Shown piece by piece: positions 26,686 to 30,393 of a DNA stretch of 64,000 bases. This DNA comes from Acidobacteriota bacterium (GTDB lineage Bacteria > Acidobacteriota > Terriglobia > Terriglobales > Acidobacteriaceae): NCBI GenBank assembly GCA_016196065.1, contig JACPYL010000001.1, positions 1 to 64,000 of the forward strand, written 5' to 3'. The notes beneath the pieces were generated by a model. The model saw only the letters and a list, made by a program, of their open reading frames with translations, was not told where the DNA came from and made no database searches. The first letter of the stretch is position 1; each line of letters starts with the position of its first letter. The position numbers and the translations under genes are program-made.

Positions 26686-26715
26686 GGTTTACTAATCACT
26701 ATCCACTGATTGCTG

Positions 26716-27558
26716 ATGTTCATCGATTCGCACGCCCATCTCGAAGGCAAACGCTACGATTCTGATCGCGACGAAGTGCTTGCCCGTGCGAAAGCGAACG
26801 GCATCGAAACCTACCTCGCGATCGGCAACGGCGAAGGCCCTGACACCGCCGACTGCGGAATCCGTCTCGCCGAGCAATATTCCGGCAAGCCGGAATACCC
26901 GGAAATATGGGCGAGCATCGGCATTCATCCACATGAAGCGCATCTTGCCAACGATGCCGCCTACGCCCGTTTGAATGAATGGGCGCGCCATCCCAAGGTA
27001 ATCGCGTGGGGCGAAATCGGACTCGATTACTTTTACGACCACTCGCCGCGTGACATTCAAAAAGCCGTCTTCCTGCAGCAGATAGAACTGGCCCGCGCGG
27101 CGAAGCTCCCGATCATCATCCATTGCCGCCCCTCCGACAACAGCGAAAATGCCTGGGACGACTGCCTTTCCCTGATCTCCGAACACTGGGCTCCCACCGG
27201 CCTCGGCGGGATTCTCCACTGCTTCACGGGAACGGTCGAGCACGCGCGCCGCGGACTCGACCTCGGCTTCCTGATTTCCTTTGCCGGGAACATTACCTTC
27301 CCCAAAGCGCAAAACATCCGCAACGCCGCTCAGATTGTCCCGCTGGACCGCATCCTGATCGAAACCGATTCGCCCTACCTCGCCCCCATCCCGCACCGTG
27401 GAAAGCGCAACGAACCGGCATTCGTGAAAGAAGTCGCCCGCCAGATTGGCGAACTCCGAACCCTCTCCCCCGAAGAAGTCGGCTCGCAAACCACCGAGAA
27501 TTTCTACAAATTTTTCAAACTCCGCGAAAAATTTGAAAAACACACACCCCGAGCTTGA
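26716..27558 (+). CDS. TatD-family metal-dependent hydrolase
   Basis: Product of 280 residues starting MFIDSHAHLEGKRYDSDRDEVLARA, with the first metal ligands in DSHAHL. Further TatD signatures are ASIGIHPHEAH, AWGEIGLDYFYDHSPRDIQKAVFLQQIELA, PIIIHCR, ILHCFTGTVEHA and ILIETDSPYLAPIPHRGKRNEPAFV. The ATG at 26716 is preferred over an upstream TTG. Family members are DNases or D-aminoacyl-tRNA-related hydrolases. Adjacent to metG, a frequent pairing in bacteria. Confidence 0.93.
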   Translation: MFIDSHAHLEGKRYDSDRDEVLARAKANGIETYLAIGNGEGPDTADCGIRLAEQYSGKPEYPEIWASIGIHPHEAHLANDAAYARLNEWARHPKVIAWGEIGLDYFYDHSPRDIQKAVFLQQIELARAAKLPIIIHCRPSDNSENAWDDCLSLISEHWAPTGLGGILHCFTGTVEHARRGLDLGFLISFAGNITFPKAQNIRNAAQIVPLDRILIETDSPYLAPIPHRGKRNEPAFVKEVARQIGELRTLSPEEVGSQTTENFYKFFKLREKFEKHTPRA

Positions 27559-27616
27559 TCTGCCCAGACCCTGAATCTTCTGATACCCTCAAGAGTCAAA
27601 TAGTGGGGCGCCAAAA

Positions 27617-27697
27617 AACAGCTACGAGCGTCGAGCCACGAGCTGCGATCGACTTGATTTTGACGTTTGCTCGCAGCCCGTAGCTCGCAGCAATTTC
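27617..27697. repeat. Dispersed repeat, GCTCGCAGC-type
   Basis: Inverted units tacgagcgtcgagccacgag and gctcgcagcccgtagctcgc separated by a short spacer, in the gap before the yajQ gene. Confidence 0.6.
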
Positions 27698-27731
27698 GTC
27701 CCGCTCGACAATTTATATACAGTAGAGAGCC

Positions 27732-28229
27732 ATGCCCGATAACACTTTCGATATCGCAAGCAAAATCGACATGCAGGAAGTTTCCAACGCCATCCAGCAG
27801 GCGATGAAGGAAATCACTACCCGCTTCGATCTCAAGGACTCAAAGTCCAGCATCGAACTCGAAGGCAAGGACGCCATCATCCTGCACTCTGCCGACGAGT
27901 ACAAACTGAAGCACGTCAACGATGTCTTCCAGCAGAAGCTCGTCAAACGCAATGTCTCGCTCAAGGGTCTGACCTACGGCCCCGTCGAGCCCGCCGCCGG
28001 CAGTACCGCGAAACAGAAGATCACCATGCAGCAAGGCATCCCGATCGAAAAAGCGCGCGAGATCGTCAAGCTGATCAAGGAATCGAAGAAAAAAGTGCAA
28101 GCATCCATCCAGGGAGACGTAGTGCGCGTCAGCGGCAAAGACCGCGATTCCCTGCAAGAAATCATTGCCATGATGCGGCAGCACGATTTCGGAATTGATA
28201 TGCAGTTTACGAATCACCGTACGAATTAG
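27732..28229 (+). CDS. yajQ: YajQ-family nucleotide-binding protein
   Basis: Product of 165 residues, the usual YajQ length. Family segments are TFDIASKIDMQEVSNAIQQAMKEITTRFDLKDSKSSIELEGKDAIIL, VFQQKLVKRNVSLKGLTYGPVEPA and KARAIVKLIKESKKKVQASIQGD-like VRVSGKDRDSLQEIIAMMR. Homologues bind cyclic di-GMP and act with a transcription factor, or bind tRNA/nucleotides. Upstream of the polyprenyl synthase gene with a repeat-filled 91-nt gap. Confidence 0.93.
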   Translation: MPDNTFDIASKIDMQEVSNAIQQAMKEITTRFDLKDSKSSIELEGKDAIILHSADEYKLKHVNDVFQQKLVKRNVSLKGLTYGPVEPAAGSTAKQKITMQQGIPIEKAREIVKLIKESKKKVQASIQGDVVRVSGKDRDSLQEIIAMMRQHDFGIDMQFTNHRTN

Positions 28230-28237
28230 GGCAATTC

Positions 28238-28310
28238 ACCGCCGAGACACAGAGAAAACCGAATTCTAATTTTGCATTCCTCTGTGACTCTGTGCCTCTG
28301 TGGTGCAAAA
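28238..28310. repeat. Dispersed repeat, CCTCTGTGG family
   Basis: Inverted units ccgccgagacacagagaaaa and cctctgtgactctgtgcctc followed by tgtggtgcaaaag, in the yajQ-prenyltransferase gap. Same family as 1088-1127. Confidence 0.7.
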
Positions 28311-28320
28311 GAAGTTACAA

Positions 28321-29310
28321 GTGAGCGCAACCACCGTCATTAACGGAAAAGAAATCTTCGACCTGCTCCGGGACGACCTCGTCGCCATTGAAGACGAATT
28401 TGGCCGCGACACCGTTTCCAACGTCGCCGCCATCACCGAGATCGGCGAATACCTTCGCGCCGGCGGCGGCAAACGCATCCGTCCCGCACTCCTGCTACTT
28501 TCCGCCAAGCTCCTGAACTACAAAGGCAACGGCGCAGTGAAGATGGCCTCGGTGGTTGAGATCATTCACACCGCCACGCTCGTCCACGACGACATCATCG
28601 ACGAAGCCCAGATCCGCCGCGGACGTCCCGCCGCCAATACGCAGTGGGGCAATTCGAAGTGCGTACTCGCCGGCGATTGGCTCTACATGCAGGCTTTTAA
28701 AATCGCCGTGCAGGAGCGCAACTTCCGCATCCTCGACGTCCTCATCGAACTCACGCAGCAGATGGTCGAAGGCGAACTGCTGCAGATGGAAAAGCTCGGC
28801 AAGATGATCTCGCTGCAAGAGCATCTCGACCTGATCTATCGCAAGACAGCGTGCCTGTTTTCCGTTTGCATGCGCGCTGGTGGAATCCTCGGCGGCGCGA
28901 CTGCCGAACAGGAAGAGCGCCTCGGACAATATGGACGCGACCTCGGCCTAGCTTTCCAGATCGTCGACGACGTGCTCGATCTCACTGCCTCCGAGAGTGT
29001 CCTCGGCAAGCCAGTCGCCAGTGACCTGCGCGAAGGCAAGGCGACCATGGCCATCATCCACGCGCTCGAACGCTGCACGCCCGCCGAACGCCGTCAGATC
29101 GAGACCGTCATGCTCGACCGCGCCTTCAACGGAGTCACGCACGCCGACATATTGGCCATTCTGCACCGCTATGGATCATTGGACTTCGCTTCGAAAGAAG
29201 CGGCCCGTTATGCCGAGTCCGCGCGCAACGCCATCTGCGCCTTCCCGGACTCTGAAATCAAACGCGCGTTGCTCTGGGCACCGGAATTCGTAGTCGCCAG
29301 AGAGAAATAG
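28321..29310 (+). CDS. Polyprenyl diphosphate synthase (long-chain, octaprenyl type)
   Basis: Product of 329 residues. The first aspartate-rich motif is LVHDDIIDEAQIRRGRPAAN and the second LAFQIVDDVLDLTAS; GGGKRIRPALLLLSAKLL and EGELLQMEKLGK are also typical. The GTG at 28321 is preferred; an upstream GTG at 28300 lies inside a dispersed repeat. The residues five positions before the first motif, which set chain length, cannot be used here with confidence, but the overall form matches trans-long-chain synthases used for quinone side chains. Confidence 0.92.
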   Translation: MSATTVINGKEIFDLLRDDLVAIEDEFGRDTVSNVAAITEIGEYLRAGGGKRIRPALLLLSAKLLNYKGNGAVKMASVVEIIHTATLVHDDIIDEAQIRRGRPAANTQWGNSKCVLAGDWLYMQAFKIAVQERNFRILDVLIELTQQMVEGELLQMEKLGKMISLQEHLDLIYRKTACLFSVCMRAGGILGGATAEQEERLGQYGRDLGLAFQIVDDVLDLTASESVLGKPVASDLREGKATMAIIHALERCTPAERRQIETVMLDRAFNGVTHADILAILHRYGSLDFASKEAARYAESARNAICAFPDSEIKRALLWAPEFVVAREK

Positions 29311-29421: not shown

Positions 29422-30393
29422 ATGGACGATCTCCTCCCACTTCTCTCTCGTCACGGCTACCTGATCCTGGGAGCGTTCTGCTTTGCGGAAGCGATCGGAC
29501 TGCCATTGCCCGCCGCGCTCGCCATCCTGACTGCCGGCGCCGTCTCGGCCTATGGCAAATTAAACATCTATTCTGTGATCGGCCTCGGGTGCGTCTCGAT
29601 GCTGGTTGGTGATTTGATTCTCTACTTCACTGGACGCTTCAGCGGATGGGCTTTGCTCGGCCTGCTCTGCCGCCTGTCGGCCAATCCTGAAACTTGCATC
29701 CTCCGTTCCGCTGAATATTTTTATAAGCGCGGCAAGCAGACTCTGCTCTTCGCCAAGTTCATTCCCGGCATCAACACCATGTCGCCCCCACTTGCCGGCA
29801 GCATGAAAATGCGGCTGGGCCAGTTCCTGCAATTCGACGCACTCGGAGCGCTCTTCTACGTCGGAGCGTATTCCCTGGCCGGTTACATTTTCAGCGATTT
29901 CCTGCGCGCCATCACCCGTGGAGTCCGCTCCGCCGGGTCAGCCGCGGAAGTTGTTCTCGGCGTCGGTCTCGCCGCCTACGTCGTCTACCGCATTTGGATG
30001 TACCGAAAATACCGCATGCTCGACATGGTTCCGCGCGTGCCCGTGGAAGAACTCGCCCGCCGCCTGGCATCCGCCGAAGCGCCCAATGTCATCGTCGCCG
30101 ACGTCCGCAGCCATGGATACTACGACGCCGCTTCCGAACGTATCGCCGGATCGGTTCGCCTCGAACCCAACAATCTGGAGGAAGAGATCAAGAATCTCCC
30201 GCTCGACCGGGAAATTTATCTCTACTGTACTTGACAGCGCGAAGCCACGAGCGCCCGGGTGGCGCACCTACTCCAAGGACACGGCTTCAAAGCGTTTGTC
30301 ATCACCGGTGGACTCCGCGCCTGGCGCAACGCTGGTCAACCCGTTGAACCCGTCCCTCATGACGACCTCATCAAACTCCCAATGTTTGAGTGA
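29422..30393 (+). CDS. DedA-rhodanese fusion interrupted by one in-frame UGA (candidate selenoprotein)
   Basis: Reading through a single TGA at 30232-30234 gives a 323-residue protein. Residues 1-200 are a DedA-type membrane protein (CFAEAIGLPLPAALAILTAG, LFAKFIPGINTMSPPLAGSMKM). A rhodanese domain follows (VIVADVRSHGYYDAASERIAGSVRLEPNNLEE ... EIYLYCT-UGA-QREATSARVAHLLQ ... GFKAFVITGGLRAWRNAG), ending at TGA 30391-30393. The downstream part is clearly the rest of the domain and in the same frame. The UGA is two codons after the likely catalytic Cys, where related fusion proteins (from memory) have Cys. Alternatives: a nonsense mutation or sequencing error. The ORF truncated at the UGA ends at residue 270. 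Confidence 0.8.
30251..30265 (+). promoter_or_regulatory. Possible bacterial SECIS-like stem-loop after the UGA
   Basis: GCGCC (30251-30255) pairs with GGCGC (30261-30265) across the loop CGGGT, which has a G in its second position. The loop begins about 22 nt after the UGA codon, within the range reported for bacterial SECIS hairpins. Such short GC stems are common in a GC-rich genome, so this is weak on its own. Confidence 0.4.

Follow-up and report, generated by a model that had tools for sequence, protein, structure and literature searches.

A DedA-rhodanese membrane protein of Acidobacteriota with a predicted Cys-x-Sec loop

The window analysed here is a stretch of 64,000 nucleotides from the genome of an Acidobacteriota bacterium, and the gene under study lies in it together with an upstream neighbour. 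The features referred to below, all in window coordinates, are:

28300 to 29310, forward strand: polyprenyl synthetase gene (Pfam PF00348), the upstream neighbour, outside the proposed mechanism
29422 to 30393, forward strand: predicted full-length DedA-rhodanese selenoprotein gene, 323 residues, selenocysteine (Sec) at 271, terminator TGA at 30391-30393
29518 to 29886, forward strand: VTT/DedA membrane domain, residues 33-155, Pfam PF09335
30073 to 30330, forward strand: rhodanese domain, residues 218-303, with a match to Pfam PF00581, a sub-cut-off match to NF041203 and Foldseek matches to solved rhodaneses
30226 to 30234, forward strand: predicted active-site loop Cys269-Thr270-Sec271, with the UGA codon at 30232-30234
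30251 to 30265, forward strand: bacterial SECIS-like hairpin, GCGCC-CGGGT-GGCGC, with its loop at +22 and a G at loop position 2

The frame begins with the ATG at 29422, holds a single in-frame TGA at 30232-30234 and is otherwise open to its terminator, so that a plain table-11 translation stops at 30234. Two domains are joined in the encoded protein. The Pfam VTT_dom model covers residues 33-155 at 37.6 bits against a cut-off of 33.9, which places the membrane half in the DedA/VTT family, with a conserved Glu23 just before the domain; the Pfam Rhodanese model covers residues 218-303 at 38.8 bits against a cut-off of 22.2. An AlphaFold2 model of the protein has a mean pLDDT of 76.9, and among the best 50 of 314 Foldseek rows, judged by their titles, the rhodanese half alone was matched. 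The loop that contains the UGA reads Y-C269-T-U271-Q-R-E-A-T-S-A-R-V-A. A sequence-only reading of this DNA had proposed exactly such an arrangement, a DedA-type gene with a rhodanese domain and one in-frame UGA in the rhodanese loop, and both the frame and the two Pfam domains agree with it. The same reading had named a nonsense mutation as the main alternative, and the table-11 end at 30234 is what a recent mutation of this kind, leaving a pseudogene or a truncated 270-residue protein alone, would produce.

Comparison with relatives speaks against that alternative. The UGA column was read in 136 homologous rows, from two readings of 94 and 42, which correspond to 124 distinct proteins (some genes were entered twice) and include rhodaneses that have no DedA match (L156-L161; five UGA-type, one Cys-type). 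As the sequence-only reading had suggested, we asked whether the column is Cys or UGA in homologues, and it is both: TGA in 91 rows and TGC or TGT in 44, with one Ser (TCC). The sole Ser row is L142, which also holds a TAG in frame and is probably a damaged copy. All 150 genomes sampled from the same order gave some match to the query. The best 19 rows (52-100% identity, own genome included) contain exactly one TGA each. The rows that follow, at 41-49% identity, are free of TGA, and at least 16 further rows with one TGA belong to a second group, whose identity is about 30-38%. On named genome contigs, titled gp1 Acidobacteria, Terriglobia, Candidatus Sulfotelmatobacter or Acidobacteriaceae, the UGA is present at 25 of 25 loci, the nearest being 82% and 78% identical by best segment. 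Finally, a sample of 396 genomes of the phylum has UGA-type DedA-rhodanese genes in 12 or more family codes, among them that of the window; this predicted selenoprotein is widespread in the phylum.

Other nonsense changes in close relatives, which would have pointed to decay, were not the pattern found: relatives at 52-83% identity keep the UGA and have no further in-frame stop, and the frame of L074, which was read by a single piece, is the sole broken one among them. A recent nonsense mutation is therefore highly improbable, since the UGA is retained down to about 31% identity with the frame open past it, no row among the 91 with UGA shows a further in-frame stop in the part read, the column is otherwise occupied by Cys codons, and both the downstream protein sequence and the hairpin are conserved. 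A sequencing error at 30232 was also considered and is very unlikely, the same codon being present in many separately sequenced genomes.

The hairpin is formed by GCGCC (30251-30255), the loop CGGGT (30256-30260) and GGCGC (30261-30265), which together span +17 to +31 after the UGA. The earlier proposal of a GCGCC/GGCGC hairpin with a loop G about 22 nt past the UGA holds: the loop starts at +22 and has G at position 2, and the hairpin is conserved above chance. Counted over distinct 45-nt sequences, all five pairs of the stem, with G-U accepted as a pair, can form in 66 of 76 UGA-type sequences versus 1 of 40 Cys-type sequences, the remaining ten UGA-type sequences having four pairs (8) or three (2); G stands at loop position 2 in 76/76 and 28/40, respectively. 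Restricting the count to DedA fusions gives full stems in 61/71 UGA-type and 1/39 Cys-type sequences. When the codons of the same UGA-type peptides were resampled synonymously, full stems numbered on average 4.8 of 76, with a maximum of 14 over 2000 draws. Individual sequences also vary in informative ways: both L075 and L137, which belong to different clades of the two described below, have a two-sided stem change, GTGCC/GGCAC, and in L091 two hairpin-encoded residues are changed (R to S, V to L) with the stem intact. By these measures the predicted hairpin is conserved beyond amino-acid constraint. ViennaRNA prefers other pairing for the window's isolated 45-nt stretch and gives the hairpin a probability of about 5%; once the first 12 nt, which a paused ribosome at the UGA may mask, are left out, the hairpin has the lowest energy in all five stretches tried (-7.8 kcal/mol for the shortest, otherwise -9.1).

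The genome that carries the window (an assembly of 5.5 Mb in 29 contigs, completeness 100) has the machinery for selenocysteine. SelA (549 bits), SelB (380) and SelD (364) each score over their cut-offs, models that pass in 1, 2 and 2 of 14 control genomes, respectively. The best tRNA-Sec match reaches 67 bits and ARAGORN calls a tRNA-Sec with anticodon TCA (UCA). The family model alone is unspecific, being over cut-off in 5/14 controls and just passed by a second tRNA of the same genome, and it is therefore the ARAGORN call that carries this point. The absence of selA, selB or tRNA-Sec had been put forward as a finding that would count against a selenoprotein; all three are in the genome, together with selD.

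Across the order, SelA is over cut-off in 60 of the 150 genomes. It passes in 34 of the 35 genomes with a UGA copy among the matches listed versus 26 of the 115 others, among which weaker UGA copies may exist beyond those matches (Fisher p 3e-16, a value that overstates independence because the genomes are related). The exception, G144, has SelA below and SelB over the cut-off, and an assembly gap may explain why selA is missing. As a side observation, some 24-37 codons within a single open frame interrupt the selA match near residues 136-145 in ten genomes (G014, G069, G071, G086, G091, G102, G108, G116, G117 and G123); they probably represent an insertion specific to a lineage. A second client for the machinery was sought in the window's genome with the formate dehydrogenase model TIGR01553, and no match was over cut-off; the one TGA match was rejected, its TGA lying upstream of the CPHDCPDACG motif and of the probable start.

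A reading of the UGA as some other amino acid, through a changed genetic code or leaky suppression, would also leave the frame open past the codon, although nothing in this is specific to it. The UGA form tracks SelA across the 150 genomes, TGA still terminates the window gene and 36 of the 91 UGA rows, and the column swaps with Cys codons only, one damaged copy apart; we consider such a recoding, like a nonsense mutation, highly improbable. Taken together, a UGA that is conserved and exchanges with Cys, a conserved hairpin that follows it and Sec machinery in the genome argue for a selenoprotein and not a broken gene. The candidate of the sequence-only reading is thus supported by the column, the machinery and the hairpin, and the DedA-rhodanese gene almost certainly encodes a full-length membrane selenoprotein, as predicted from these comparisons.

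It is conceivable, though unlikely, that both products of the gene matter, with a stop at the UGA giving a DedA-like short form, Sec giving the long form, and the ratio set by selenium supply. In its favour, the UGA falls after the entire DedA domain, and bacterial Sec insertion competes with termination; against it, the Cys-type relatives that were read have no stop at this place and would yield the long form only there.

The full-length selenoprotein and its Cys counterparts can be placed on a tree. A tree of 76 Sec and 38 Cys proteins (114 in all), built by a quick method with the loop residue masked, with no outgroup and with some long branches, separates two clades well. Each clade contains UGA forms and one group of Cys forms, which gives two changes of state, one per clade; having no outgroup, the tree allows either direction, Sec to Cys or the reverse. 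Cys-type copies were read in 36 genomes of the order, 31 without SelA over cut-off and 5 with it. SelA over cut-off stands beside a Cys-type copy in 1/24 genomes of the window's clade (G122) and in 4/14 of the other clade. The presence of the machinery does not force the Sec form. The 31 of 36 genomes that lack SelA over cut-off fit a replacement of Sec by Cys when the machinery was lost, as we infer. Among individual loci, G122 has two adjoining Cys-type copies (L112) despite the presence of SelA and SelB, and L098, L103, L108 and L110 are second-clade Cys-type copies in the SelA-keeping genomes G072, G095, G129 and G076.

Rhodanese selenoproteins with a Cys-x-Sec loop are not without precedent. 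A table in PMC13188914 includes a 'rhodanese-like domain-containing protein form 3' with motif CxU, assigned to NF041203, and a CxU rhodanese selenoprotein is also in the list of PMC9312934. The NF041203 model (rhodanese_LYCAU) describes a rhodanese domain whose loop, as in the window protein (C269-T270-U271), is of the Cys-x-Sec kind, but it has 126 residues and no DedA part. Among 34 scanned members, 34 match it at E 1e-5 or better. The window protein scores 83.6 bits as a whole and 85.2 with the domain alone, below the cut-off of 115, in a match that spans profile positions 10-125 of 126; six DedA fusions score 76.8-88.4 bits, the rhodanese part of L157 scores 83 and the DedA-free L156 scores 122.7. 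In a search of the window's own genome with NF041203 no match was over cut-off, the DedA-rhodanese gene reaching 79.3 bits. Other rhodanese selenoproteins, namely forms 1, 2 and 4 and a TsoB rhodanese/DsbD fusion-like protein, also combine Sec with rhodanese according to PMC13188914, but there with the motifs UxxS, UxxG and UxxxxU and, in TsoB, with another partner domain.

Cys-type DedA-rhodanese fusions (COG0586 + PF00581, for example PA1209) have the same domain order and a CxC loop, with Cys where the window has Sec. PA1209, named in PMC12893004, is likened here by name and not by sequence; in betaproteobacterial plasmid fusions the loops read YCACPHE (L162), YCVCPSE (L164) and YCDCPAE (L163). 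A selenoprotein with a DedA/VTT-rhodanese fusion was not found in the open-licence literature searched, which is not proof of absence. In the available parts of the main texts of PMC13188914, PMC2398784, PMC1088965, PMC12013277 and PMC9312934 the term 'DedA' has 0 occurrences, and in the available part of PMC1794560 rhodanese appears only inside a reference. Because CxU rhodanese selenoproteins have already been catalogued, the selenoprotein idea is less novel than the sequence-only reading had supposed: the CxU rhodanese kind is already known, and it is the Sec form of the DedA membrane fusion that appears to be new.

Several related proteins also stand out. L157 and L158 carry a rhodanese with the same Cys-x-UGA loop and hairpin at the C-terminal end of an open frame whose N-terminal part is long, very hydrophobic and, by our reading of the sequence, antiporter-like; they are likely another membrane fusion with Sec. 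L156 (over the NF041203 cut-off), L159 and L160 are rhodaneses with no DedA match that have the same UGA and a similar hairpin. L170, a rhodanese-like protein of the window's own genome, has a multi-Cys loop, YCGCCPWNHC, and no UGA.

We then consider which residue of the loop would carry sulfur. Rhodanese sulfurtransferases are defined by a catalytic Cys in a six-residue loop, and the strand-helix loop of the window protein is two residues longer than that of ordinary rhodaneses. A gap-free local HMMER alignment to 6mxv sets position 271 on the canonical catalytic Cys. A MAFFT alignment with five rhodanese-like proteins of the own genome, on the other hand, includes four that have a CxxGxRS loop, and it places their catalytic-type Cys on Cys269. 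In the AlphaFold2 model the strand ends at 269, and the model does not settle the catalytic residue. The UGA had been described as lying two codons after the catalytic Cys; it does lie two codons past Cys269, but either Cys269 or residue 271 may match the canonical residue. Across the 34 rhodanese domains aligned, 24 of them from UGA-type and 4 from Cys-type DedA fusions, neither position varies when Sec is counted as Cys. Since the alignments and the model disagree on the canonical residue and both positions are invariant, we favour Cys269 and Sec271 as a pair that would work together.

Mechanistically, SelB would bind the hairpin and bring Sec-tRNA to the UGA, giving a VTT/DedA domain joined to a Cys-x-Sec rhodanese. 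In turn, Sec271 and Cys269 would act as a redox pair: one residue would accept sulfane sulfur, or selenium, to form a per(seleno)sulfide, and its partner would resolve this via a selenenylsulfide, leading to sulfur transfer or persulfide reduction at the membrane. We regard this redox-pair mechanism as having about an even chance of being correct. A serious though somewhat less probable alternative accepts the selenoprotein and makes Cys269 the sulfur carrier, Sec271 merely resolving or tuning. The MAFFT placement supports it, as does the strand end at 269 in the AlphaFold2 model, which is the position of the canonical catalytic Cys; the HMMER alignment to 6mxv, with 271 on that Cys, and the location of Sec at 271 and not at 269 weigh against it.

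The membrane half was compared in one alignment of 28 sequences. According to PMC10127716, the second reentrant helix carries two arginines that are essential in the COG0586 proteins tested, and their likely ligand is the phosphate group of undecaprenyl phosphate; in the same source the link of Cys-type DedA-rhodanese fusions to undecaprenyl phosphate, and the reason why some DedA proteins bear rhodanese, are called unclear. Where two stand-alone DedAs of the own genome have Arg and Arg, the window protein has Lys112 and Asn118, and thus does not show the two second-reentrant arginines of UptA. The stand-alone proteins also have a glutamate after the PxP motif, a place at which the fusions have no acidic residue. 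This combination (first Arg to Lys, second to a non-basic residue, no acid after PxP) is found in 23/23 Acidobacteriota and 3/3 betaproteobacterial fusions. The window protein shares the VTT domain with UptA, the DedA-family undecaprenyl-phosphate flippases, and matches two UptA models weakly (36.5 and 32.3 bits), but it falls far under their cut-offs of 300 and 250, with the second reentrant Arg replaced by Asn and the acid after PxP also replaced. These replacements tentatively suggest that the substrate of the DedA half has changed in the fusion class. Lacking one Arg and one acid of the two stand-alone DedAs, this half may have given up flipping undecaprenyl phosphate and could act instead as an anchor or transport another substrate.

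Upstream of the gene, positions 26710-29310 of the window hold the order TatD-YajQ-polyprenyl synthetase. YajQ and polyprenyl synthetase lie upstream in 22 of the 25 genome-contig loci; the three exceptions include L055, which begins right at the end of its contig. At L051 other ORFs lie between the polyprenyl synthetase and the DedA gene. As a clue to function, the synthetase neighbour carries little weight.

A Sec in the DedA-rhodanese loop suggests that the chemistry involves redox reactions or sulfane sulfur. In its broadest and most speculative form, which we consider less likely than not, the picture would be of a phylum-wide selenoprotein that couples a Cys-x-Sec rhodanese to a DedA half remodelled away from undecaprenyl-phosphate flipping, and so forms a selenium-dependent station at the membrane where sulfane sulfur (or selenium) is transferred; Cys forms occur in both clades, mostly in genomes without SelA over cut-off, as if Sec had given way to Cys twice with loss of the machinery. 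Because table-11 translation truncates the gene and the NCBI model scores it below cut-off, this widespread selenoprotein of soil Acidobacteriota probably carries a wrong label. With natural Sec/Cys pairs in two clades and SelA status known for the sampled order, the family offers a ready comparative system.
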